In this document: one piece after another, positions 30,941 to 47,257 of the stretch
Numbering within the stretch: position 1 is the stretch's first letter
How the letters are laid out: every line of letters begins with the position of its first letter
NCBI RefSeq assembly: GCF_028471945.1
Contig: NZ_CP110128.1
Location: 4,266,501 to 4,330,500, forward strand
Reading direction: 5' to 3'
DNA: 64,000 nucleotides
Source: Pseudomonas sp. WJP1
GTDB taxonomy: Bacteria; Pseudomonadota; Gammaproteobacteria; Pseudomonadales; Pseudomonadaceae
Notes under the pieces: model-generated
What the model was told of the DNA's origin: nothing
Database searches by the model: none
Seen by the model: only the letters and a program-made list of their open reading frames with translations
Program-made: the position numbers and the translations under genes

Positions 30941-31028
30941 GGAGGTGTGGCCGAGTGGTTTAAGGCAACGGTCTTGAAAACCGTCGACTGTAACAGGTCC
31001 ATGAGTTCGAATCCCATCGCCTCCGCCA
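30941..31028 (+). tRNA. tRNA-Ser (anticodon UGA)
   Basis: An 88-base class II tRNA with encoded CCA. The acceptor stem GGAGGTG/CGCCTCC, the D-arm TGGCCGAGTGGTTTAAGGC, the anticodon arm ACGGT-CTTGAAA-ACCGT (anticodon TGA), a long variable arm and the T-loop TTCGAAT are visible. The T-stem ATGAG/CCCAT has one A-C mismatch at its fourth pair. tRNA-Ser genes are frequent island insertion sites, and the DNA downstream here is accessory. Confidence 0.96.
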
Positions 31029-32289: not shown

Positions 32290-32370
32290 GATAGCTTGGA
32301 TAGCTTGGATAGCTTGGATAGCTTGGATAGCTTGGATAGCTTGGATAGCTTGGATAGCTTGGATAGCTTG
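32290..32370. repeat. Nine perfect tandem copies of a 9-base unit
   Basis: GATAGCTTG is repeated nine times without any change, 81 bases in all. It is intergenic, between the two hypothetical membrane-protein genes, 95 bases upstream of the second. The lack of drift between copies points to recent expansion or ongoing slippage. It has no spacers, so it is not CRISPR. Confidence 0.97.
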
Positions 32371-32464
32371 CTCTAAGCTTGGGAGTATTAGGCTTAGGTC
32401 ACTACCTCTTTATGCAAAATGATGCTCTATCCTTAACGGCTCCCACTTCATCTGGAGTGATTAA

Positions 32465-33351: not shown

Positions 33352-34440
33352 TCAATCGTCAGCATAAAGGCTCACAGCACGACGCAGCGCATCTCGCACA
33401 TGAGCTCGGATAACGGGAGGTTCAATCACTTCAATTTCGTCCGCATTGCTCAGCAGAAACAGTCTCAAACCCTGAGTATCGAGCAGTGTGCATCTCAGCT
33501 CCCATTTCCCGTCGGATGACTGTTCCATGAACTGGTCAGCCGTCAGAGGATTTTCCGAGAGTCGGTTGTGCAGGTTGGCGCCCAGCCGGAGATGGAGTTC
33601 AACAGACTCATTATCATGAATGGTCATGAGGTGCTTTTGTGCTTCGGGCGAGTTAACGTCGAAATCCCCGGGCTCTGGAATCTCCCAGCCGCTCTCGCCA
33701 ATCGCCACCACTCGATGGAGCATGAGTGCGCACTGCGTGTTCGGACCATTGCTGCTGTACTTACCTCGCTTTGCGCCGGGCTCGGGTGCGCAGCCTTCTG
33801 GCCACTCTTCTATCAGTACATAGGCAGACAGGTAGATGTTCGAGTCCTGATAGGAGAGTGCTAGCGGTTTGAGGTGATACACACACTCAACGCCCCCGGC
33901 ATCCCTGGGGAGGTACGTGACCTTCAACGGCTCATTGTATCGAAGCGCATCCTGAATCCTGGCTACATGGTCGGGATTGGATCGACCCGGTTGCAGCACC
34001 GTGAAGCGTGTGCCCGTGGTGATGCGTTTGGCCCATTCCAGCTTTCGGCGAGGTCCCTTTCTCATGACGCGATCAACGTACTTGTGCAATTTACCCAGCA
34101 TTTCGGGTGGCGCCTGAAGGCCAAAGCGAGCTGCGTGATCGATGATGGCCGATACCGTCATGGCCTCAGTCGGCAGGAGTGTCAGATCGAGGCCAGGCCC
34201 TGCCCACTCCCAGAAATTGGCTCGTAGATCCGAGTCCAGCTTGATCTGCCTGACGTCCCCGATGCGCTCCAGTGCTTCAAGGTCCCGCTGCGTACTTTTG
34301 GGAATGTGGTTCTCAAGTGCTAACTCGCCGCAGACACGCTCGTGCAGAACGGTGGTCGACTGCGGCTCCTTGTACTCAAGCAAAATTTTGCGCAGGCAAT
34401 CCCGGCGATCAAACAAATCCACTTTATTTTTCACAGCCAT
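33352..34440 (-). CDS. WYL-domain transcriptional regulator (BrxR/CapW-like)
   Basis: A 362-residue regulator. Residues 8-78 form a winged helix (HIPKSTQRDLEALERIGDVR). A WYL domain spans about 155-240, with the core strand SYQDSNIYLSAYVLIEEW. A WCX-type C-terminal region follows (LHNRLSENPL, RAHVRDALRRAVSLY). Regulators of this build repress phage-defence operons (BREX, CBASS) and may sense nucleic acids. The open frame extends upstream, but the ATG at 34440 gives a sensible N-terminus. It is divergent from the five-gene unit starting at 34535, and a 15-base inverted repeat lies nine bases upstream. It most likely represses itself and that unit. Confidence 0.88.
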   Translation of the reverse strand: MAVKNKVDLFDRRDCLRKILLEYKEPQSTTVLHERVCGELALENHIPKSTQRDLEALERIGDVRQIKLDSDLRANFWEWAGPGLDLTLLPTEAMTVSAIIDHAARFGLQAPPEMLGKLHKYVDRVMRKGPRRKLEWAKRITTGTRFTVLQPGRSNPDHVARIQDALRYNEPLKVTYLPRDAGGVECVYHLKPLALSYQDSNIYLSAYVLIEEWPEGCAPEPGAKRGKYSSNGPNTQCALMLHRVVAIGESGWEIPEPGDFDVNSPEAQKHLMTIHDNESVELHLRLGANLHNRLSENPLTADQFMEQSSDGKWELRCTLLDTQGLRLFLLSNADEIEVIEPPVIRAHVRDALRRAVSLYADD

Positions 34441-34448
34441 CCTATTGC

Positions 34449-34463
34449 GGACACGATCTGTCC
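34449..34463. promoter_or_regulatory. Putative operator in the WYL divergent spacer
   Basis: GGACA-CGATC-TGTCC is an inverted repeat with perfect five-base arms, placed in the 94-base spacer between the WYL gene and the divergent operon, immediately upstream of the WYL start codon. Position and symmetry suit the site of a dimeric repressor. Confidence 0.55.
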
Positions 34464-34534
34464 CTATCCAATGTTTTGATGCTCTGGCTGGCAGGCAATT
34501 TCGCTCATCGTAACGCCAGCCCACAGGAGTATTC

Positions 34535-35416
34535 ATGAACCGCCAGACCTACCTCGCCCTCCCCTACGTTTCTCAGTTCATTGACTGGCTCGCGGCAGAA
34601 CTCGACTCTCAGTGGCGCTTCACGCACGAGTATGTTGACCGTCGTACCGGTGCGCAATGGTCTTGTAGCAGCTTGTTTGACGCCTTCAGTCACTACCGCT
34701 GGAATCATCCGGGAAACTCGCGACTGGCGTTCAATCCGGGAAACTGCGCCATGAGCAATGCTCTTGCACTGGCTGCGTTGCGCAACGATCTCGAGCATAT
34801 CCATGGTGATGACAAGCGCGCTCTGGACGCAACACTTGACGTGATGAGTTGGGGCGGCGTAAGTGCCGGTAACGCAAGCTGGCTCAAGGCAAATAAGCAA
34901 GGACTGGCAGGTCTGCTAGAGGCCGTACAGAGAGCGATGGACGCTGGCGATGAGCTTTCTCCAATTCTTTGCTCGAAGCATCTGCGCTTCAACTCTGGAA
35001 TGACCAAGGTCTACTCGCTGCTCTGCAAGAATTTCGTCATCTATGACAGTCGCGTCGCCGCAGCACTCGGCTGGCTGATTGTGAAGTACTGTCAATCCCT
35101 AGGTCTTTCTAACGTACCGCACGCATTGTGCTTCCCTTGGGCTGCGGCCAAGGAAGCGCCCAACGCAGCCGCCCCGAAACGGCGGAACCCCGGTGATGGC
35201 AATCTCCAATTCAAAGGGCTTCGCTCGGGCACTCATCATGCGCTCTGGAATCTGCGAGCGAACTGGGTGTTGAACGCCGTGTTGGCACACCCAGCCGCGA
35301 TAGGAAGCCCCTTCCACTCGGTCGCATCTCCGCACGATCCACTGCGCGCCCTGGAAGCTGCGCTGTTCATGATCGGCTATGACCTCGGCCTTCAGCGAGT
35401 AGCCGTGGCCGCCTGA
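34535..35416 (+). CDS. Hypothetical protein, possible OGG-fold (HhH) type; first gene of the putative defence operon
   Basis: A 293-residue cytoplasmic protein I cannot assign firmly. Residues 147-180 read SKHLRFNSGMTKVYSLLCKN and then FVIYDSRVAAAL. The pattern 'S-K-x-L ... IxDSRV-x-x-AL' resembles the region after the helix-hairpin-helix in OGG-like DNA glycosylase-fold proteins found in defence neighbourhoods. The product at 42779-43471 has a similar pattern (ASKLLRFLRPDMHASLDGRI). AGGAG precedes the ATG. It is the first gene of the divergent operon and is 61 bases from the next. DNA binding or base recognition is a guess from this pattern only. Confidence 0.7.
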   Translation: MNRQTYLALPYVSQFIDWLAAELDSQWRFTHEYVDRRTGAQWSCSSLFDAFSHYRWNHPGNSRLAFNPGNCAMSNALALAALRNDLEHIHGDDKRALDATLDVMSWGGVSAGNASWLKANKQGLAGLLEAVQRAMDAGDELSPILCSKHLRFNSGMTKVYSLLCKNFVIYDSRVAAALGWLIVKYCQSLGLSNVPHALCFPWAAAKEAPNAAAPKRRNPGDGNLQFKGLRSGTHHALWNLRANWVLNAVLAHPAAIGSPFHSVASPHDPLRALEAALFMIGYDLGLQRVAVAA

Positions 35417-35477
35417 CAACAGGAGCCCTTCCCTCGCTCGCTGGGCGAGGGATATCACTGACTCATTGAGGTGAACG

Positions 35478-35849
35478 ATGAAACGCTTGAGATCGATCCA
35501 AACCCTGATCGTTAACCTGGCCGCGAACGGCATACGGGCCATCGACCTGAAACACGCTGTCGCCCGCAATTTTTCGCACCTGGAGGAGGCGCAATATCAA
35601 TCTGCGCTGTTGGGCCTGCAGGAACTCGATTGCCTGGTGGGCGAGGAAATGCAAGGAGAGTGGTTTTTCAAAACCCTTGATAAGACGCGGCCTGATTATC
35701 AGCCCCTTGAATACAGCCCTGAGTTTGCGGAAAAAATCATCGCAGCGTCCTGCGGGGAGTTCGTAGAGATCGACGTCGACGATTTCCTTGCACAACTGGA
35801 CGTCATGATCGCCAACGCGAAAGGCACTGACTCGGATTCGTCCAACTGA
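35478..35849 (+). CDS. Small protein of the putative defence operon
   Basis: A 123-residue protein with no family I recognise. Residues 20-62 (RAIDLKHAVARNFSHLEEAQ, then YQSALLGLQELDCLVGEEM) could form a winged-helix-like unit; the C-terminal third is acidic (EIDVDDFLAQLDVM) and ends in a polar tail. GAGGTGA lies upstream of the ATG with good spacing, supporting a real gene. It lies between the OGG-like gene and the zinc-ribbon membrane gene on the same strand. A small adaptor or regulatory role would fit its size. Confidence 0.72.
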   Translation: MKRLRSIQTLIVNLAANGIRAIDLKHAVARNFSHLEEAQYQSALLGLQELDCLVGEEMQGEWFFKTLDKTRPDYQPLEYSPEFAEKIIAASCGEFVEIDVDDFLAQLDVMIANAKGTDSDSSN

Positions 35850-35898
35850 TGATCCAGTGACATGTTGCGCCTGCACAACACACTTCAGAGGGACAATG

Positions 35899-36876
35899 AT
35901 GAGCGCCAAGGGAGACTATGTCTCAGTTGAAAAAGACGAGTTCGAGGGCCTAACGACCATTGAACATGTGCGTCATTGCCGCCATCGCGGGGGTGAGAAT
36001 GAACTCACCCTGTCCTGGCGTCGCAATATTCGCCAGACCTCAGACCGCATGATTCTGGATCTTGAAATAAAGACGTCCCGCGCGGGCGGCTGGTTGCCTT
36101 CCAAACTGGTCGCATTGGCCGATGACCAGCGAATCGAGTTGAACTATCTCCCGAACAAGATCGGCGAATACCACCGCGGCGACCTGTATGAAATCGGCCT
36201 ATTTTTTCTGGAGCCCGCACCTTGGATGATGCGTACGCTGTGCGACGCGGCGTCGCTGAAACTCAAGTTGTACTCGAGCGAAAAGAATGAACACATGCTG
36301 CTACCCGATCAGTTTTGTACCCAGTTGCAGCTCCAGGCCCGGCAGTTCTACAACAATGCATTCGATCAGACCCAGTACATGGATGCAGTCACTGAAACTG
36401 CCCCACGGACAGAGGAGGAAGCTTTCGAAGAGTACATCGCTCGCCGCGAAAAACGTTACCGGTCGTTGTGCAGCTACCGGCTAATTTGGGGCATGGTGTG
36501 GCTCGGTATCATCAGTGGGTTATGCCTGATCCCGGTGTTCTCGACAGTGAGTCTATCGAATAGCACAACCGATCTAGCCATCATTATCGCGTTGCTGAGC
36601 TCATTGAGCTGGGTTGTACCTCATGTGCAAATTCTCTGGATTGAGCAACAGAAAAACAAAGAGTGCCCACGCTGCCATCGTCGTGCGATAAAGCTCACCG
36701 GTTACCGGGAAAATGTCTATCAGGTGCGCTCCGTTGAGCAGATTGTGAACGACCGGCTGACGGGCAAGCGAAAATCGCAGCAGGTGACCGTCACGGATCA
36801 TGAAGTAACGCAGGATTTCACCTGCATGGACTGTCGTCACAAGTGGACGCGTAGCCATATTTCGCGGGGCTTCTAG
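35899..36876 (+). CDS. Membrane protein with N-terminal soluble domain and C-terminal zinc ribbon
   Basis: A 325-residue protein. Residues 1-185 are soluble, first beta-rich (ELTLSWRRNIRQTSDRMILD), then helical. Two transmembrane segments follow at about 195-213 and 224-246. The C-terminal cytoplasmic part has CPRCH (Cys256, Cys259) and CMDCRHKW (Cys309, Cys312), a four-cysteine zinc ribbon. I recognise no family. Two adjacent ATGs follow AGAGGGAC; I chose the second (35899). It sits before the AddB-like gene with 26 bases between. In defence loci two-TM proteins are often the membrane-acting part; here it might place the nuclease complex at the membrane. Confidence 0.8.
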   Translation: MSAKGDYVSVEKDEFEGLTTIEHVRHCRHRGGENELTLSWRRNIRQTSDRMILDLEIKTSRAGGWLPSKLVALADDQRIELNYLPNKIGEYHRGDLYEIGLFFLEPAPWMMRTLCDAASLKLKLYSSEKNEHMLLPDQFCTQLQLQARQFYNNAFDQTQYMDAVTETAPRTEEEAFEEYIARREKRYRSLCSYRLIWGMVWLGIISGLCLIPVFSTVSLSNSTTDLAIIIALLSSLSWVVPHVQILWIEQQKNKECPRCHRRAIKLTGYRENVYQVRSVEQIVNDRLTGKRKSQQVTVTDHEVTQDFTCMDCRHKWTRSHISRGF

Positions 36877-36902
36877 GTTAAACATCAGCAGGGAGCAGAA
36901 TC

Positions 36903-39527
36903 GTGTCCGAAATGCAGATTACATTTGGTATGCAACTCGATGGTCAACGGCCGGTACGGCCTGGCAATCGACTTGGGTTTGTGACGGTAGGCCCGCTAGG
37001 CTTACTGGAAATTCTCGAGACACAGCTTGGGCTGGTCGCCCTCCAGCACTGTGCCATCCAGCGAGTGACGGCGTATCGAGATTGTCTTGCCAAAGAAGCC
37101 ACCGACAAACGCTTCTATCTCGCCAGCTTTATGGCCGATGAGTTGGGCGTCGCTGCCGAGCTCCTTTCGTGGCGTGATGATTTGTACCTACATGGCTGGG
37201 ACGGTACAACCGGCCCCAATGCAAGTGTGCGCATCAGTGATCTGGCCCAAGTGGAACGACATGCCAAGGGCTATATAGCTCCATCGGTGGGAGAGCGCTT
37301 GCAACAAATAGCGTCACTATTGCAGACACGTCGTACACCCATTGGAAAAATCCTGTTGGCGGATGACTGGCACGCTTACCCAAGCGCCTGGCAAGCCGTT
37401 CTCCATTGCCTGCCGCATGAGTCCATCGAGCGACCGAAAGGACGTGCCAAAGGCTTTTTAGGAAAGTTGCAGGTACAGCTACAAAAAAGCATCGCCGGCG
37501 AACAACTTGAGCCACTCGCGTGGGAAGACGACGGCACTGTGCAGGTTGTTCAGGCGCAAACGCTCTCCCTCGCAGCCAGTTGGCTCAGTCGCTCGCTTAC
37601 GGACACCGATTCACTCCTGCTGGTCGCAAGCCAGGAAGGTGGTCGCCTTGACGCGCATATGGTCGGCGCCAACCGGGCTCGTCAGGGGCTCGATAGTGCA
37701 AGTGCACTGAGACCTGCTCTGCAGGTGTTGCCGCTGGCACTGGAGCTTCTCTGGGCGCCGCTGAATTACCCAGCGCTGCTGCAATTTCTCAGTCACTCCA
37801 TTTGCCCGATTCGCGCCCATGCTCGCCGCAAGCTGGCGGCCAAGATTGCTGCGTCCCCTGGAGTGGAAGGTGTCCTCTGGGAAGAAGTACTGAGCGGTAT
37901 TAGCGAGCACTACGGTGTGGACGCTGAACAAGTTCTAGAGTCCGTAACCGCTTGGGTGCAGTGCCCCACGTACAGCAAAGACCACGGTGCGCCTTTGGAA
38001 GACGTGCTGGGACGAGTTCGACGGCTTGGCATGTTCTTTCAGGGCCGAACGGGGCACTCCGAAACCGCACACCGTCTCGCCGCTCTTGCAGGCCATGCGC
38101 AGTGCGCAGCGGTTGAGCAAGCTTTGGAAACGCTTGCCGCACAGGATGTACAACTGCTGCGTCCACGTCAGTTGCAACAGATTGTGGAACAGGCCACCGC
38201 GAATGGGACCAATAACCCTTTACTGGCGGCTCAAGTGGGCGCGCAACAGACCGTCTCACGGCCCGGAGCGGCTATAGAGCACGTGGACACGGTGCTGTGG
38301 TGGAACATGACGATGCCACCTCTGCCCGGCCATTCGGTTTGGTCCAACGCAGAACTCAAACAACTTGCAGAGATCGGTGTATCGCTGCCCACAGGGTCGG
38401 CCCTGCTCGCACAAGCCACTCAAGACTGGCTACGCCCCGTATTGGCGGCGGACCGCCGCCTCATATTGGTACTCGGACGCCAAAGCGAGGAAAGCCATCC
38501 TATATGGCAGATGGTTGAAACGCTGGTGGATCATCCCAAGGTCACCGCACTTGAGGCGTTATTGATTGCTCCCGGCCCCTTGTCCCAGCCTCACCCGTTA
38601 GCGCCCCTGCCGTCACGCAAACGCTGGTGGAAGCTACCAGCCGAAACGCCACTGTCAGCGTTGGAAAAATCGTCCTACTCCAGTTTGAATCTGCTCCTGT
38701 TCAACCCTTATCAGTGGTTGTTGCATTACGCAGCACGAATTCGCCCATCGGAAAGCCTTGCTTTAGGCGATAGCTATCAACTCAAGGGAGTGCTGGCTCA
38801 TCGCGTAGTGGAGCATTTTTTCGCTTCGCCCAACGCGTTGAACATGGACAGTCGCGATTTTTCAGCTTGGTTCGTGACTCACTTCGACCAAGTGATCAGA
38901 GAGGAAGGGGCTGTACTGTTGATGGATGGACGTGGCGCTGATCTCGCGACCTTCCGACATCGACTGCAACGGGCGCTGGAGCAACTGCGAATTCATTTCT
39001 CGGCTGCGTCCGCACAAAGCGTTGTTTGCGAAACACAGCTTGAGGGGCAGTTCGCTGGAGGTGTGCTGGCTGGATCTGCCGACCTGATCATCACCAAAGC
39101 GAACGGTCATAAGGCGATAGTCGACATGAAATGGGCTGGGGGCAAAAAGTACCCGGAACAACTCAGGGACAATCGTCACCTGCAGCTAGCGATTTATGCC
39201 GAACTGTTGCGCCAGACTACGGGATCGATGCCTTCCGTGGGGTATTTCATTCTCGACTCCGCCCGGCTTTTGACACCGGATGATCAAGCATTTGCGGACT
39301 CCGAATGCATTCCGGCAAATCCACCAGGCACCACGCGCGAGCTGTGGCAGAGCTTTACGCAAACCTGGGCATGGCGTCATGGCCAGATTGCGCAGGGGGT
39401 TTTCGAAGTTGCCTTGGAGGACATCGAAGAGGACGAGCTATCCGTCCCGCCTGCAGGAGCGTTGTCGATGGAATATCTCAAAGAAACCTATAACCGCTAC
39501 TTGGCCCTTGCCGGGTGGGAGCAATGA
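36903..39527 (+). CDS. AddB-like PD-(D/E)XK nuclease with degenerate helicase part
   Basis: An 874-residue protein. The C-terminal nuclease is clear: AHRVVEHFF, then GSADLI (about 723), IVDMKWAGGKKY (about 738) and QLAIYAELL (about 761), the D...D-x-K...Q-x3-Y pattern of RecB-family exonucleases. The N-terminus looks AddB-like (VGPLGLLEILETQLGL), but no Walker A (GxxGxGKT) is present, so the helicase part is probably inactive, as in several AddB-type subunits. The start is GTG after AGGGAGC. Its end overlaps the AddA-like gene by four bases (ATGA). The two probably form a heterodimer that degrades DNA ends, separate from the housekeeping RecBCD. Confidence 0.88.
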   Translation: MSEMQITFGMQLDGQRPVRPGNRLGFVTVGPLGLLEILETQLGLVALQHCAIQRVTAYRDCLAKEATDKRFYLASFMADELGVAAELLSWRDDLYLHGWDGTTGPNASVRISDLAQVERHAKGYIAPSVGERLQQIASLLQTRRTPIGKILLADDWHAYPSAWQAVLHCLPHESIERPKGRAKGFLGKLQVQLQKSIAGEQLEPLAWEDDGTVQVVQAQTLSLAASWLSRSLTDTDSLLLVASQEGGRLDAHMVGANRARQGLDSASALRPALQVLPLALELLWAPLNYPALLQFLSHSICPIRAHARRKLAAKIAASPGVEGVLWEEVLSGISEHYGVDAEQVLESVTAWVQCPTYSKDHGAPLEDVLGRVRRLGMFFQGRTGHSETAHRLAALAGHAQCAAVEQALETLAAQDVQLLRPRQLQQIVEQATANGTNNPLLAAQVGAQQTVSRPGAAIEHVDTVLWWNMTMPPLPGHSVWSNAELKQLAEIGVSLPTGSALLAQATQDWLRPVLAADRRLILVLGRQSEESHPIWQMVETLVDHPKVTALEALLIAPGPLSQPHPLAPLPSRKRWWKLPAETPLSALEKSSYSSLNLLLFNPYQWLLHYAARIRPSESLALGDSYQLKGVLAHRVVEHFFASPNALNMDSRDFSAWFVTHFDQVIREEGAVLLMDGRGADLATFRHRLQRALEQLRIHFSAASAQSVVCETQLEGQFAGGVLAGSADLIITKANGHKAIVDMKWAGGKKYPEQLRDNRHLQLAIYAELLRQTTGSMPSVGYFILDSARLLTPDDQAFADSECIPANPPGTTRELWQSFTQTWAWRHGQIAQGVFEVALEDIEEDELSVPPAGALSMEYLKETYNRYLALAGWEQ

Positions 39528-42500
39528 GCATGTCGACCACGCCCCATATCACGTTTATTAGCGCCGGCGCCGGCAGTGGAAAAACCCATCGGCTCACAGA
39601 GATCCTTCACCAGGAACTGCTCAGTGGAGAAGTCGATCCGGCAGGTATTTTCGCCACCACCTTTACCCGAAAGGCGGCAGCGGAGCTGCGCGAACGGGTA
39701 CGTAGCCATTTACTCAAACAAGGTAATACAGGCTTGGCGACCGCTATGGGCCTGGCGCGCATCGGCACAATCAACAGCCTCTGCGGCCAGTTGCTGGAAA
39801 GGTTCGCCTTTGAGGCAGGCATGCCACCCCAGCAACGTGTATTGGAAGACAGCCAGGCGAACGTGCTGCTGAACCAAGCCATCGATCGTGTCCTCAACGG
39901 CGAAACGCTGGAGCGTTTCCTCGCTGTTGCTCGCCGTATGGGCCTGGAGATAAACGAGCAAATGGGAGAGCTTAAAACGCACAACTGGCTCGACGACCTA
40001 CGTCAAATACTGGTCCAGTTACGCACCAATGACATCGATCTCGAATCAGCCATGGCTTTTTCAAAGCGTAATGCTGATGAACTGCTTGCGCATTTTCCGG
40101 CACCTGCATCTGTCGATTTGAAACAGGAGTTACTCTGCGCCATTCCCAGCGTGCTTGCCCAATTGATTGATGCCCAAAGCGACGTCGGCATCACGCGCAC
40201 CTACATCGCATTACTCAAGGACTTCCAGCGGTCTCTGAATCACGACAGCGCTCGCTGGAGCGATTGGGCAAAGCTTTCAAAAACCGAACCGCAGGCAAAG
40301 CTCAAGCCACTGGTCGAGCTCATTGGTGAAACCGCTGCCCGCTTCGCCGAGAGTCAAGCGCTACACAACGACATCCGCGACTACCTCCAGCAGATCTTTA
40401 GTCTGGCAATCAGTGTGGCAAAAGTTTATGGCGACTCCAAACGTGAGCTGGGGGTGCTTGATTTCGCGGATCAGGAGCATGCCCTTCTTAAATTGCTGGA
40501 TAACCCTGCAGTGTCCCAAGTCCTGGAGGAGGAACTGGATCTGGTCATGGTTGATGAGTTCCAGGACACCAGCCCCATACAGTTGGCGATCTTTCTGAAA
40601 CTGTCGCAATTGGCAAAACGGGTGTACTGGGTGGGCGATATCAAGCAGGCCATCTATGGTTTCCGCGGCAGTGACAGTGCCTTGATGCAGGCCATCCTCA
40701 AATCGCTTCCACAGCTCGGAGGAAAAAAAGAAGTCCTGACTCGATCCTGGCGCTCCCGACCGGAACTGGTAGAGCTGGTAAACGAGGTCTTTGTGCCTGC
40801 ATTTGAACCCGGCCTGACAGGGCCGGAGGTGCAGCTGACGCCGACTCGCGAGGATAGCCTCCCAGGGCCGGCATTTGCCAACTGGGGTCTGGACGGCGGC
40901 AATATTGGTCAGCATATGGAAGCGTTGGCACTGGGTATCCAGCAACTGATCGAGCAAGGCCACCGCGTATTCGATAACGCCAGCAAATCCATTCGAAATG
41001 TTCGCCCTGGCGACATCACGGTACTTTGTTATTCCAACAGCAACGTGGCTAAAGTAGCCAGTGCCCTCACCCAAGCGGGTCTCCAATGTTCGACAGCCCA
41101 ACCAGGATTGCTGGCTAGCGCAGAAGCGACCCTGGCGCTGGCATGTTTGCGGCGTCTGAATGATCCCGCCGATACGCTGGCCACTGCCCAGATCGTTTCA
41201 CTGACCAGCACCGAGGAGCCAGAGGTGTGGGTCTCTGAACGATTGCGCTATCTGGCGCAGGAGCATCCCAACACTGAATGGCGTGAACGGGAGATTGAAG
41301 ACCATGCAGCCCACCCAGTGATCGCTGCGATCGCTGCGTTGCGCGCCGACCTTCCCCTGATAACCCCCAAGGAAGCGTTGCAACGTGTGATCGCCGAATG
41401 CGATCTCCTCTCCCTTGTGACCGCCTGGTCCTCGTCCCCGATACAGGCGCAGCGGCGTCTGGCCAACCTGGATGCGTTGATTGACCTCGCCCAGCAACAT
41501 GAGGAGCTTTGTTTGAATGGGCTGGGCGCCGCTTCCATCTCCGGACTGATTCTTTGGCTCGATGAGATCGCCAAAAGCCAAAGCGATGCGCTACCGTTAC
41601 CGGCACTGGATGCCGTACAGGTGATGACCCATCACGCCAGTAAAGGGTTGGAATGGCCAGTGGTCATCCTGATGGATCTGACGCGTGATTTTGGAGATCG
41701 CTTATGGGCTGTCTCAACACGCTCAAACAGCCTTTTCGACCCTCAGAGGCCACTGCATGATCGGTTCATTCGCTGCTGGCCATGGCCGTTTGGCAAGCAG
41801 CAAAAAGTGCCAATCGCTGAAAAAATAGCGAGTTCTGAAGCTGGGATCATGTTTAAGCATGAAGCCACAGAAGAAGCGAAGCGCCTGCTGTATGTCAGCA
41901 TGACCCGTGCTCGTGATCTATTGGTCATCGCGTCCCCCGCCAAAAAAATGAGTGGCCCATGGCTTAACTGCGTAAACGCTCCGTGGCTGGTACTGTCTGA
42001 TGGCGAGCAACCGTTGACGTTACCCAGCGGCAAAACGCTGCCCGCAAAATCCCAAAAGTTGTCACCCGGGACTTTGCCGGCTACACGTGGTGTCAACGAT
42101 GAGACGCTTCACTGGTTTGCACCAAGCCAGGCCCGCGAGCCGAAGCGGCCACTAATATTTCAGCCTTCCGGTAGCGCAGCACGCGGCCTCTCAATGCCAC
42201 TGGACAAATGTCAGATTGGAACACGCATCGCGCTGAAGGGCCGTCCAGAAATGAGTGTCTTGGGGGCCGCGATTCACGCAAGTCTGTGCCTTTCATTTGC
42301 GGACAAAGATCAGCCGATCACGCTGGATGACATTCACCGCCTGCTGACGGCCCATAACCTTCTTGATTATCTGAATGCACAGCAGCTCCACGATCAAGTG
42401 CTAGCGCTTCACGACTGGATTACGTCTCGGTGGCAGGGATCTCGGGCAATGGCTGAATATCCCGTACAACAAGTGCTGGAGACCGGCCAGGTCCTGAACG

Positions 42501-42715
42501 GGCGTATTGATCTGCTGCTCGATACCCATGAGGGCTGGGTGCTGATCGATCATAAATCGAACCCATCACCGAAGGCGCGCTGGGATGAATTGGCCGACGA
42601 CCACGTCGGCCAACTCGAAGCCTATGCCAAGGCAATCCATATGGCGTCGGGCAAACCGGTAGCACAAGGATGGATATTCCTGCCCACGGCCGCCGGCGCG
42701 GTGCGGGTGTTTTGA
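39524..42715 (+). CDS. AddA-like UvrD/Rep helicase-nuclease
   Basis: A 1063-residue superfamily 1 helicase with a C-terminal nuclease. Helicase motifs are Walker A SAGAGSGKT (13-21), TTFTRKAAAELRERV (Ia), VDEFQDTSP (II, about 344), GDIKQAIYGFRG (III, about 372), MTHHASKGLEWP (V, about 700) and LLYVSMTRARD (VI, about 788). The nuclease has NGRIDLLL (about 992) and VLIDHKS (about 1005), with QLEAYAKAI after. All catalytic residues appear intact, so it should unwind and cut DNA. The ATG at 39524 overlaps the AddB-like stop; ATG 39530 is possible. It is the last gene of the unit, followed by a hairpin. Confidence 0.93.
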   Translation: MSMSTTPHITFISAGAGSGKTHRLTEILHQELLSGEVDPAGIFATTFTRKAAAELRERVRSHLLKQGNTGLATAMGLARIGTINSLCGQLLERFAFEAGMPPQQRVLEDSQANVLLNQAIDRVLNGETLERFLAVARRMGLEINEQMGELKTHNWLDDLRQILVQLRTNDIDLESAMAFSKRNADELLAHFPAPASVDLKQELLCAIPSVLAQLIDAQSDVGITRTYIALLKDFQRSLNHDSARWSDWAKLSKTEPQAKLKPLVELIGETAARFAESQALHNDIRDYLQQIFSLAISVAKVYGDSKRELGVLDFADQEHALLKLLDNPAVSQVLEEELDLVMVDEFQDTSPIQLAIFLKLSQLAKRVYWVGDIKQAIYGFRGSDSALMQAILKSLPQLGGKKEVLTRSWRSRPELVELVNEVFVPAFEPGLTGPEVQLTPTREDSLPGPAFANWGLDGGNIGQHMEALALGIQQLIEQGHRVFDNASKSIRNVRPGDITVLCYSNSNVAKVASALTQAGLQCSTAQPGLLASAEATLALACLRRLNDPADTLATAQIVSLTSTEEPEVWVSERLRYLAQEHPNTEWREREIEDHAAHPVIAAIAALRADLPLITPKEALQRVIAECDLLSLVTAWSSSPIQAQRRLANLDALIDLAQQHEELCLNGLGAASISGLILWLDEIAKSQSDALPLPALDAVQVMTHHASKGLEWPVVILMDLTRDFGDRLWAVSTRSNSLFDPQRPLHDRFIRCWPWPFGKQQKVPIAEKIASSEAGIMFKHEATEEAKRLLYVSMTRARDLLVIASPAKKMSGPWLNCVNAPWLVLSDGEQPLTLPSGKTLPAKSQKLSPGTLPATRGVNDETLHWFAPSQAREPKRPLIFQPSGSAARGLSMPLDKCQIGTRIALKGRPEMSVLGAAIHASLCLSFADKDQPITLDDIHRLLTAHNLLDYLNAQQLHDQVLALHDWITSRWQGSRAMAEYPVQQVLETGQVLNGRIDLLLDTHEGWVLIDHKSNPSPKARWDELADDHVGQLEAYAKAIHMASGKPVAQGWIFLPTAAGAVRVF

Positions 42716-42752
42716 GAGTTCAGCATCCTTGATGCGTGTGACACCCTAAATG

Positions 42753-42778
42753 GCGGCCCAAGTCCGGGCCGCACATTT
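42753..42778. terminator. Hairpin between convergent genes
   Basis: GCGGCCC and GGGCCGC pair around AAGTCC, followed by ACATTTT. It lies between the AddA-like gene and the convergent HhH-protein gene and could end transcription from the left. The T tract is short. Confidence 0.6.
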
Positions 42779-43471
42779 TCACTCAGCGGCAGCCATCTGG
42801 CTCTCTGCGTCAGGTACCGTGCTCGTACGGTCGGCCCAAGCAAACAACGCCATCTCTACGTCTGCCACTCGCCAGCCTGTCTGGGTTGCTGCCGCCAGAA
42901 GGTTGCATTCCGGCCGGGCAATCTTCGCCGCATCCAGTTGCGCCACCAACTCAACGCAAAAAGCCTGGAACGCGACATAGCCTCGAACCATCGAGTTTTC
43001 ATTGCTGTCGTAGACCCTGTCCAACAACCGGGCTTTCAGCATTGCTTCGCGTATACGCCCATCAAGGCTGGCGTGCATGTCCGGTCGCAGAAAACGCAAC
43101 AGTTTCGATGCGTAGGTTAATCCGCAACCCGGGATTTGCAGCGCCGCAGTGATCGCTTTTTTTGGATCATCGATGTTGGCCAACACTGGCGCGAAAATGC
43201 CCAGCAGCGACACATTACCCAGACCCACCTCAAACCTCATCCGCGGATCGTTTTTTCCGGCGCCCCACGCAAGGAGCTCACGAACATAATCCGTCGGTGC
43301 ATTGGTCAGTGATGCCTGTTCAACCAGCCAACTCCCCCGCTCTTCTAAGGATTTAATCCACGGGAAGGTGGGATATTGATCGCCTGGATACCCTCTGGCC
43401 TTATGGTTCGCGTTCGACCAGTTGTAGGCACGAAAGAAGGCGGGAAACTCATTGATATTGATGACAGACAA
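42779..43471 (-). CDS. Helix-hairpin-helix (OGG-fold-like) protein, convergent with the nuclease operon
   Basis: A 230-residue cytoplasmic protein. LQIPGCGLTYASKLLRFLRP (111-130) fits a helix-hairpin-helix followed by the helix usual in OGG-like glycosylases, and ASLDGRIREAML (134-145) gives the acidic/arginine pattern. I see no secure catalytic lysine, so enzyme activity is unproven. The C-terminal WRVADVEMALFAWA is family-like. Its layout resembles the first gene of the nuclease operon (34535). It converges on that operon and may be a separate part of the same locus, or an independent gene. Confidence 0.78.
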   Translation of the reverse strand: MSVININEFPAFFRAYNWSNANHKARGYPGDQYPTFPWIKSLEERGSWLVEQASLTNAPTDYVRELLAWGAGKNDPRMRFEVGLGNVSLLGIFAPVLANIDDPKKAITAALQIPGCGLTYASKLLRFLRPDMHASLDGRIREAMLKARLLDRVYDSNENSMVRGYVAFQAFCVELVAQLDAAKIARPECNLLAAATQTGWRVADVEMALFAWADRTSTVPDAESQMAAAE

Positions 43472-45401: not shown

Positions 45402-46268
45402 TTACCAGTTTTGCTTCGTTGCCAAGGTACGTCTTGCGTCTTCAACCAATTGCACAAGTTCACCTAGCGACTCGGTCAGTTCTGCATGCCCCTTATCCGG
45501 AGAGTATGTCAAAAACTTTATTTTCATAGACTCAGAAGCAACGGAAAGTATATCTGAATGCACCTCTCCTTCCGGCAGCGTCATATAATGAAATGGCATG
45601 CGACCGTAAACATACTGAACATCCTCGAATAGAGACCTTATATCAGGATCATCTATCCCACAACCAACAAACACGAACGTATGAGTTAATACCAACGATT
45701 TTATCAGAGCATAAAAAACCTGATATTTCGTTCTCGCTTCCGCATAATCTCGCCTTGTGAAAATAAGGTTACCCGGAGCATCTGCTGAACCATGCGTTTT
45801 CAACAAAAGCCGACTATCGCCACCAGATATACAATACAAAATATCAGAACTTGTGTGATCCTTTTTTATGACTGTCCCATGCGAAGCATTGTAGGCATAA
45901 GTATCATATATAAGATCAAAATTCGGAGTAGCAACAATCGACGAATCAAGATTATATATGTGTTCGTGAATTTGGGCAGGCCGATATCCCGGCCGTTGAT
46001 ATTCCGCCTGAACCAGACTTACAAAAACATCATCGCCTACCTTTTTCTTAATTAACTCACAAGCAGTGAGATAGTCGCGCAGATCAATCAACTCTGCAAT
46101 AACAGGCGGCGAATCAATCTTCGCTGCGGCTGACTTCAAGAAATCCACCCAAGTCGCCGGACGTTTGCCATCAGCATTTGTAGAGTTTCGCGAGACCCCT
46201 GAACCTATCATTATCACGCTACGTCTGCGAGCAATAGCAGAAACTAATTCATCACCCCAAGCGATCAT
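45402..46268 (-). CDS. SIR2-family protein (putative NAD-consuming effector)
   Basis: A 288-residue protein of the SIR2-like (SIR2_2) fold. The NAD-binding loop is VIMIGSGVSRNS (18-29), the catalytic-region Asn/Asp are in ATPNFDLIYD (113-122), a histidine is in LLLKTHGSADAP (155-166), and VFVGCGIDDPDIRSLF follows. In defence systems such SIR2 domains deplete NAD+ when infection is sensed. There is no signal peptide. Its ATG shares one base with the stop of the ParA-type gene (TGATG), so the two are co-translated. The DNA is visibly AT-rich. A chromatin-type deacetylase role is unlikely. Confidence 0.9.
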   Translation of the reverse strand: MIAWGDELVSAIARRRSVIMIGSGVSRNSTNADGKRPATWVDFLKSAAAKIDSPPVIAELIDLRDYLTACELIKKKVGDDVFVSLVQAEYQRPGYRPAQIHEHIYNLDSSIVATPNFDLIYDTYAYNASHGTVIKKDHTSSDILYCISGGDSRLLLKTHGSADAPGNLIFTRRDYAEARTKYQVFYALIKSLVLTHTFVFVGCGIDDPDIRSLFEDVQYVYGRMPFHYMTLPEGEVHSDILSVASESMKIKFLTYSPDKGHAELTESLGELVQLVEDARRTLATKQNW

Positions 46269-47257
46269 CAGCCAATCCTTTGGTCAAGTTTATCAGCAAT
46301 TGCATGATAAAAACTTCCAGCTTCTTCAACACGATTATAGTTAGACCCAACGATACCGTCTTTTGCACCCAAATCAAATATCGGGGCATGCGCCTGCTGC
46401 GATAGTGGAACGACACTACTTAGAGTTGGAACTTCGCCTAGGTTTACTTCAGAAAGCTGAACATCAAAAAACTCACAGAGCAACTTCAATTCCTCGTTTT
46501 GTTTTTTTATTATGTTCTCGAAAGCATCTACCGCTTGCCTTACGCCCTCTTTCTTTTTAGCAGTATATTGCTGCATTACATAACCGGCAAACTTCAAATC
46601 CCACTCTACAACCGCATCCTTCACCATAAATGGCACACCCTCGTCTACCACGTAACGATCCAAAGCTCCAATGAGCGAGGTGCGCCAGTTAGCAAAGGAT
46701 TTGAGAATATTACTCACTGCCATTAGGCTAAAAATATCGACAGATAACGGCATCAAAAAATAATCAACGGCGAGCACTACGGACCTGTTTAGAGCTCCTA
46801 AGGATGGCCCCATGTCCACTAGAACATAATCGTACTCTTCAAGCCTACCCACCAATTCCCGAAGGGCAAAGGTTGTCTGAAAGCCTCTGGGATCACCGTT
46901 GCGCGTTGCCGCCCAATCAGTAGCAAGGAGATCCTCACGAATAGAGAGTTTTGGGTCACCCACAATTACGTCAACACCAAACCTTTCACTCCGCACAATC
47001 GTTGGAATGTCTGAGGCATATCCATGACCACGGCGAACAGGCTCGAAAAAAGCATCAATGCTTTGATGGGTGCCATCCATCAGAATAGACTCGAGCATTT
47101 TATCAGGTAAAAGGTACGCCGATGCATTGCACTGAGGATCTGCATCCAGAACCAAAACTTTCTTTTTTGATTTTAGCGCCAAGGACGCGGCAACATTGCA
47201 TAACAAAGTTGTTTTTCCAACGCCTCCTTTGTTATTGAAAAAAGCGATACTTTTCAA
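46268..47257 (-). CDS. ParA-type (AAA_31) ATPase coupled to the SIR2 gene
   Basis: A 329-residue ATPase with the deviant Walker A KGGVGKTT (10-17) and the switch segment VLDADPQCNASAYL, followed by YVLVDMGPSLGALNRSVVLA. These mark the ParA/Soj family. No parB gene or parS-like repeats accompany it, so chromosome or plasmid partition is unlikely; coupling to a SIR2 gene suggests it is the sensor or control part of a two-gene defence unit. The start codon is TTG, with AAGGAG six bases before; this RBS decides the start. Parts of the middle (VMQQYTAKKKEGVRQAVDAF) are lineage-specific. Confidence 0.9.
   Translation of the reverse strand: MKSIAFFNNKGGVGKTTLLCNVAASLALKSKKKVLVLDADPQCNASAYLLPDKMLESILMDGTHQSIDAFFEPVRRGHGYASDIPTIVRSERFGVDVIVGDPKLSIREDLLATDWAATRNGDPRGFQTTFALRELVGRLEEYDYVLVDMGPSLGALNRSVVLAVDYFLMPLSVDIFSLMAVSNILKSFANWRTSLIGALDRYVVDEGVPFMVKDAVVEWDLKFAGYVMQQYTAKKKEGVRQAVDAFENIIKKQNEELKLLCEFFDVQLSEVNLGEVPTLSSVVPLSQQAHAPIFDLGAKDGIVGSNYNRVEEAGSFYHAIADKLDQRIG

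Follow-up and report, generated by a model that had tools for sequence, protein, structure and literature searches.

Genes of the locus

The DNA analysed here, called the window, is a stretch of 64,000 nucleotides from the complete 7.0 Mb genome of Pseudomonas sp. WJP1 (GCF_028471945.1, NZ_CP110128.1:4,266,501-4,330,500). Positions 33352..43471 of the window carry a locus with adjoining genes for an AddB-like and an AddA-like protein, which an initial annotation had put forward as part of an undescribed defence system. This pair is the constant core of a locus type whose neighbouring genes change and which probably serves as a modular, so far undescribed defence against viruses or plasmids.

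All seven open reading frames (ORFs) of the locus were recovered by ORF calling, nearly as they had been described: a divergent WYL gene, five same-strand genes (g2, g3, g4, addB and addA) and a convergent gene for an HhH protein (Table 1). The longest ORF of the WYL gene extends to 34536, with a likely start at 34440. Its product has both WYL and WCX domains above the Pfam cut-off, the former barely so (24.2 bits; cut-off 21.8), while g2, g3, g4 and the HhH protein gave nothing above the Pfam cut-off. The placement in accessory DNA next to a tRNA gene was borne out, as GC content drops from approximately 0.63 to between 0.45 and 0.57 beyond tRNA-Ser, near which the low-GC region begins. A direct-repeat search found no repeat marking an attachment site of the tRNA, and consensus scans for promoters and terminators gave no excess over shuffled sequence.

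Table 1. Features of the locus and of its edge (window coordinates)
Feature	Position	Strand	Basis
tRNA-Ser(TGA)	30941..31028	+	edge of accessory region
WYL-WCX transcription regulator of g2-g3 cassette, 362 aa	33352..34440	-	PF25583 E 1.8e-9, PF13280 E 3.3e-5
Operator-like inverted repeat GGACA-N5-TGTCC, between WYL and g2	34449..34463	.	exact match
g2, predicted glycosylase-like (HhH/DUF2419-like) protein, 293 aa	34535..35416	+	AF2 model, structural rows, invariant residues
g3, small g2 partner, 123 aa	35478..35849	+	gene following g2, or partly fused to g2, elsewhere
g4, 325 aa: beta-rich N-terminal domain, two hydrophobic segments, C-terminal four-cysteine ribbon	35899..36876	+	low-confidence model
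AddB-like subunit, C-terminal PD-(D/E)XK nuclease	36903..39527	+	PF12705 E 2.5e-17
AddA-like subunit, superfamily 1 (SF1) UvrD-type helicase + C-terminal PD-(D/E)XK nuclease	39515..42715	+	PF00580 E 5.4e-45, PF12705 E 1.7e-8
HhH/OGG-like protein, 230 aa, convergent, loosely linked	42779..43471	-	BLASTP E 6e-7 to slot gene of locus L084

Enzyme features and distribution of the AddB-like/AddA-like pair

The pair had been described as coupled, and addB and addA overlap or sit a few bases apart in nearly all mapped loci. Residues were counted in 55 AddB and 53 AddA sequences from the fetched loci, after removal of nine redundant loci and incomplete genes. In the AddB-like protein H633, D727, D741, K743, Q761 and Y765 are kept in 55/55 sequences. 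In the AddA-like protein D347, E348, H921, D999, D1012, K1014, Q1033 and Y1037 are kept in 53/53, and the Walker lysine K23 in 52. The conserved columns of the 55 AddB sequences contain no Walker A motif and no cysteine cluster, C61 (32/55) and C401 (29/55) being the only columns that are at least half cysteine. With the nuclease residues of both proteins and the Walker lysine of AddA retained, and Walker A lacking in AddB, the pair should be an AddAB-type helicase-nuclease with one motor and two nucleases. The closest solved relative of AddA by sequence is 3u44 (E 4.6e-31), and the AddB profile returned a single row, at E 0.41, from PDB sequences. In P. fluorescens HK44 (L011 12613-18452) the addA match is interrupted by an insert of approximately 2.6 kb that contains two ORFs (249 and 527 aa).

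The AddB-like protein is present in nine of 297 Pseudomonas genomes, and all nine of these carriers, the genomes in which RecB was scored, also have a full-length RecB above its curated cut-off. On these two counts the pair was rejected as the housekeeping AddAB of Pseudomonas. Across the class, three of 274 genomes match, these being the WJP1 genome itself and two marginal short matches. A wider search gave 208 AddB relatives at E ≤ 0.001 among 7,999 proteins scored; nearly all of the best 120 of the 208 match across most of their length. The pair was also found in 58 loci of GTDB genomes, mostly Proteobacteria with some metagenome-assembled genomes labelled as other phyla, and in 26 of 72,556 plasmid records, 25 of which cover 80% or more of the query at a single place and 17 of which are typed as conjugative.

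A phage-borne origin was also considered and rejected. The only match in a phage collection, MT835507 (L080), is labelled Bacteriophage sp. and 'UNVERIFIED'. As it is unannotated and several of its genes are 92 to 99% identical to those of a P. laurylsulfatiphila locus (L015), it reads as a mislabelled bacterial island. It also holds restriction-like and Zorya-like proteins, recognised by eye only. One scan of viral_contigs found no relative.

Regulators, exchangeable genes and the g2-g3 cassette

For counts of neighbouring genes, redundancy was removed at 90% AddB identity, which left 52 of 66 AddB loci; 40 of the 52 have 5 kb of upstream sequence and 47 have 1.5 kb. A WYL gene lies within 5 kb upstream of the pair in 23 of the 40 non-redundant loci, the window included (L027 was scored as having no WYL, although tblastn finds one there), and downstream in two of 41. 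Among the 25 loci with 9.9 kb of upstream sequence, the WYL gene is at 0 to 5 kb in 17 and at 5 to 9.9 kb in four. Since the 7 Mb of the WJP1 genome contain two WYL genes, presence upstream of the pair is far above chance, and the recurrent association of WYL genes with the pair is real.

The regulator in the window may nonetheless not be the pair's own. In a FastTree tree of 40 WYL proteins (midpoint root, read for topology only), the WYL proteins of the window, of L011 and of the L012 cassette nest among those of g2-g3 cassettes, while those upstream of AddBA (addB followed by addA) in L012, L015 and L016 form another clade. The WYL proteins of L017, L018, L084 and L085, AddBA loci with a Sel1 gene, are the sister group of the cassette clade. 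The cassette in the window would thus occupy the place where other loci hold a WYL gene belonging to the pair.

Just before the likely start of the WYL gene stands GGACACGATCTGTCC, the only exact GGACA-N5-TGTCC in the window, where 0.03 would be expected by chance. In the 15 loci compared, the repeat at this place is exact in the window, L011, L125 and L128, has two mismatches in L130, L135 and L137, and three or four in eight; exact copies are also found in L134 and L139. In a Burkholderia AddBA locus an exact GGACA-N5-TGTCC (L057 6608-6622) separates a WYL gene from a member of a 5'-nucleotidase cluster. Genes of that cluster overlap the end of addA in L021 (15801-16727) and L040 (6615-7532; PF06189 in L040), and others are near AddBA in L043, L055 and L057.

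What immediately precedes addB (within 120 bp, on the same strand) changes from locus to locus. A gene is present there in 22 of the 47 loci; four are WYL genes and the other 18 fall into 15 clusters. Pfam matches include SIR2 (L057), ADP-ribosylglycohydrolase (L036, with a gene of the same cluster in L055) and a weak match to uracil-DNA glycosylase (UDG) under the cut-off (L022, E 0.0081), and the gene in L047 belongs to a cluster annotated as AbiEii in L004. TIR with pentapeptide repeats (L046) and RNase_T (L064, same cluster in L040) also precede addB, outside the 47-locus count since addB is incomplete or the upstream stretch too short. PDDEXK_4 (L025) and HD (L045, under the cut-off) were called as genes in a first, cruder round of ORF prediction, and the second caller did not retain them in that form. 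A Sel1 gene lies upstream of addB, not always adjoining it, in L017 and, from the same cluster, in L018, L084 and L085. By contrast, an integrase-like protein (L023) and an MFS transporter (L060) are also among the products of genes before addB, and a TraI_2 relaxase gene is found near the pair, further off, in L087.

The wider flanks are rich in defence families. Among 150 neighbour proteins scanned, hits at E ≤ 1e-10 fell in 197 PADLOC families (among the first 25 of which are GajA/B, JetB/D, ZacA/B, IetA, AbiEii and SIR2), compared with 25 families for 129 proteins of a chromosomal control. The neighbours were proteins of 120 to 900 aa, one per cluster and excluding AddA, AddB and WYL, from 43 listed loci; they were taken in locus order, so that the sample of 150 was reached at L058 and covers the loci up to that point. 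The control consists of ORFs of the same length range from 19 stretches of the WJP1 genome, so both counts are of families and the control stands for one genome. This context supports the initial proposal that an AddAB-like machine of defence type lies near a WYL regulator, and a defence role of the locus is likely.

The other component in the window, the g2-g3 cassette, also occurs by itself. The AF2 model of g2 has a pLDDT of 92, and VIA-align structural rows include DUF2419, MagIII and MutY, the best being DUF2419 queuosine-salvage enzymes; rows missing from the structure lists were not taken as proof of absence. Residues N153, M156, T157, K158, Y170, D171 and R173 are invariant in 33 sequences, and, judged from sequence, K158 and D171 may be the equivalents of OGG1 K249 and D268. 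The window protein gave no match to the Pfam OGG family PF21790; two of the 33 g2 members match it (best E 0.037), and P0225 reaches 12.7 bits against a cut-off of 27. A g2 profile found nothing below E 0.48 among PDB sequences.

Relatives of g2 are present in 47 of 297 Pseudomonas genomes, and the best 120 of 601 relatives were listed in a database search. Fifteen stretches of approximately 15 kb around g2 relatives (L125-L139) were taken and searched by tblastn. WYL, g2 and g3, or part of g3, stand side by side in 11 of them (L125-L134, L136), and g4 and AddBA are in none of the 15; L126 comes from a genome (G052) that has AddB elsewhere. A separate g3 ORF follows g2 in eight of the 15; in L126 and L127 the C-terminus of g2 instead continues into a segment matching g3 residues 78-115, with a weaker match in L131. 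In L135, L137 and L138 the g2 relatives are longer (446 to 448 aa) and g3 is unmatched. The L135 stretch, which has no AddBA, further contains relatives of the WYL, Sel1, c21 and OGG-like genes that lie upstream of addB in L084.

Full-length g4 is found in three of the 297 Pseudomonas genomes, all of them AddB carriers and two with look-alike loci; two further genomes have a partial match to the ribbon only. The probability of this co-occurrence by chance is 2e-5, or 8e-4 with the two look-alike loci taken as one, the WJP1 genome being included. The g4 model is of low confidence (pLDDT 64.6) and yielded no usable structural match. The HhH protein, which had been thought to close the locus, turned out to be loosely linked. 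Any match to it occurs in four of the 297 genomes, one being broken by stops and one marginal, and its relative in the AddB carrier G105 lies on another contig.

A g2 or g4 relative is present in eight of 63 AddBA loci (L001-L005, L011-L068). In L012, L013, L014 and L026 (and in L081 and L082) a cassette of g2, g3 and g4 with divergent WYL faces a separate WYL-AddB-AddA unit. A distant g2 relative (30% identity) precedes addB in L018 and its look-alike L027, so that the link between cassette and AddBA is not plainly due to chance. One fixed five-gene system was rejected, since the cassette without g4 or AddBA makes up 11 of the 15 wide g2 loci and g2 or g4 accompanies AddBA in so few. The initial idea of a single multi-gene system thus holds only in part: the neighbours largely vary independently, and the five-gene set is a composite, though one that recurs in two arrangements.

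Two features of the window lie apart from these genes. A SIR2-like gene (PF13289, E 1e-18) abuts a ParA-like ATPase gene at 45402-47257 on the minus strand, in the lowest-GC part of the island, and the two are possibly a second defence pair. A nine-base tandem repeat, GATAGCTTG, is present in approximately nine copies at 32290-32379.

Comparison with known systems and proposed function

As initially supposed, the locus matches no named system in PADLOC, NCBIfam or Pfam. In a PADLOC scan of nine window proteins, g2, g3, g4 and the HhH protein matched no family at E ≤ 1. The regulator matched the WYL model and, weakly, Cas3c; AddB matched the nuclease models DruK and Cas4; and AddA matched helicase models, best GajB (E 2e-34; best 25 of 54 rows). 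Among the papers listed in searches of mainly open-access literature for AddAB-like or RecBCD-like defence systems, parts of them and defence glycosylases, none described this system, which may have a name elsewhere.

The pair is most like AddAB of the Bacillus subtilis type (TIGR02785/TIGR02784), in which AddA is an SF1 helicase with a nuclease and AddB a nuclease on a helicase-dead frame. However, the window AddA reaches 243.5 bits where the curated cut-off is 707.65, and for AddB the NCBIfam scan gave nothing at E ≤ 1. The AddB of AddAB carries Fe-S cysteines, whereas the window AddB lacks a conserved cysteine cluster. In addition, the pair in Pseudomonas is accessory beside RecB and not the sole end-processing enzyme of the lineage.

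Gabija (GajA-GajB) also combines a nuclease with a UvrD-like helicase in defence islands, and no PADLOC model matches AddA better than GajB, but the window AddA has its own nuclease domain and the pair has two nuclease subunits. None of the PADLOC rows for the nine window proteins (for AddA, the best 25 of 54) is a GajA partner, and in the neighbouring genes other domains, or no domain at all, were identified. The proposed target of Gabija is linear DNA free of RecBCD (PMC12407980, in excerpt), so a second nuclease-helicase can coexist with RecBCD.

The regulator resembles BrxR and CapW, WYL-WCX proteins beside defence-type genes with an inverted repeat near the start codon, as the putative operator in the window would be. 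According to excerpts of the two reports, BrxR binds to inverted repeats whose arms are 5 bp apart (PMC9122601) and CapW is a repressor of CBASS operons (PMC9122588). The genes under these regulators are different, and the window repeat is a putative operator. The available text on Brig1, Brig2 and Brig3 (PMC11078745, PMC13160076) describes base-excising proteins in defence islands, Brig1 belonging to the uracil-DNA-glycosylase superfamily, Brig2 and Brig3 being called its homologues and Brig3 having an operon partner, BapA. The gene before addB in L022 is weakly UDG-like, whereas g2 and the HhH protein resemble, by weak evidence, the HhH/OGG side. Zorya and Kiwa pair a defence nuclease with a membrane partner (PMC12904381, in excerpt), but g4 has no PADLOC match at E ≤ 1.

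The reading preferred here, with a probability of roughly 0.55, is that the pair is the accessory AddAB-type helicase-nuclease of a widespread undescribed defence module, controlled by WYL regulators and joined in the window to a glycosylase-like cassette. AddA would supply the motor and one nuclease, and AddB the second nuclease on a helicase-dead scaffold. The enzyme would load on DNA ends, unwinding and cutting incoming or replicating phage or plasmid DNA. The WYL regulator, acting at the repeat at 34449-34463, may hold the operon low and lift repression once infection or DNA damage is signalled, for instance by single-stranded DNA; a mycobacterial WYL regulator, there acting as an activator, binds single-stranded DNA (PMC10693628, in excerpt). 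In many loci the exchangeable gene before addB may add a recognition or killing function, a place that the cassette with its WYL gene, together with g4, would fill in the window. The g2-g3 cassette could open modified or damaged foreign DNA by base excision, and g4 could anchor the complex in the inner membrane, the site of phage DNA entry. Cooperation of the modules, and the single complex with membrane-bound and DNA-reading parts envisaged initially, are hypothetical. The fullest form of this proposal, a modular platform in which a WYL-controlled AddAB-like engine takes its targets from the front gene, and in which g2 here excises modified or damaged bases of foreign DNA so that the resulting breaks let the engine in for processive degradation at the membrane, is rather doubtful. 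The defence signal of the flanks is partly generic, as mad2 and mad3 match flanks and controls alike.

The strongest rival, a real if lesser possibility, is that two independent defence cassettes, AddBA and WYL with g2-g3 (with or without g4), share an operon only because islands collect such genes. The cassettes that stand without g4 or AddBA agree with independence, as do the AddBA units with their own upstream WYL in L012, L015 and L016 and the L012-type loci, where the modules face each other and each has its own WYL. It accounts less well for the same-strand coupling in the window and L011, for the distant g2 relative before addB in L018 and L027, and for the restriction of full-length g4 to AddB carriers. 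An unlikely explanation is that plasmids and integrative elements carry the pair as a repair or recombination enzyme for their own upkeep, with no part in defence. AddAB and RecBCD are established repair enzymes, and the conjugative plasmid records and the relaxase gene in L087 are in keeping with this, but the Pseudomonas carriers already own RecB, and the WYL genes, the changing defence-type genes before addB and the defence families of the flanks count against it. Most improbable of the three is abortive infection by a toxin-antitoxin-like g2-g3, in which g2 would be a toxin that removes bases or cleaves nucleosides, g3 the antidote to it and AddBA a guarded repair partner; the small size of g3, the fusion of its C-terminal segment to g2 in some genomes and the likeness of g2 to queuosine-salvage enzymes would suit it, but fusion of antidote to toxin is, to our knowledge, not typical, and WYL control and the independence of g2-g3 from AddBA also speak against it.

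If the preferred reading is correct, evolution has made a portable engine of defence, with interchangeable partners, out of a repair-type enzyme in genomes that already own RecBCD, and a new family would join the catalogue of DNA-degrading defences. It would also explain some of the pairs in islands and plasmids whose annotation goes no further than 'PD-(D/E)XK nuclease' and 'UvrD helicase', and would make testable how a second RecBCD-like enzyme distinguishes foreign DNA ends from those of its host.

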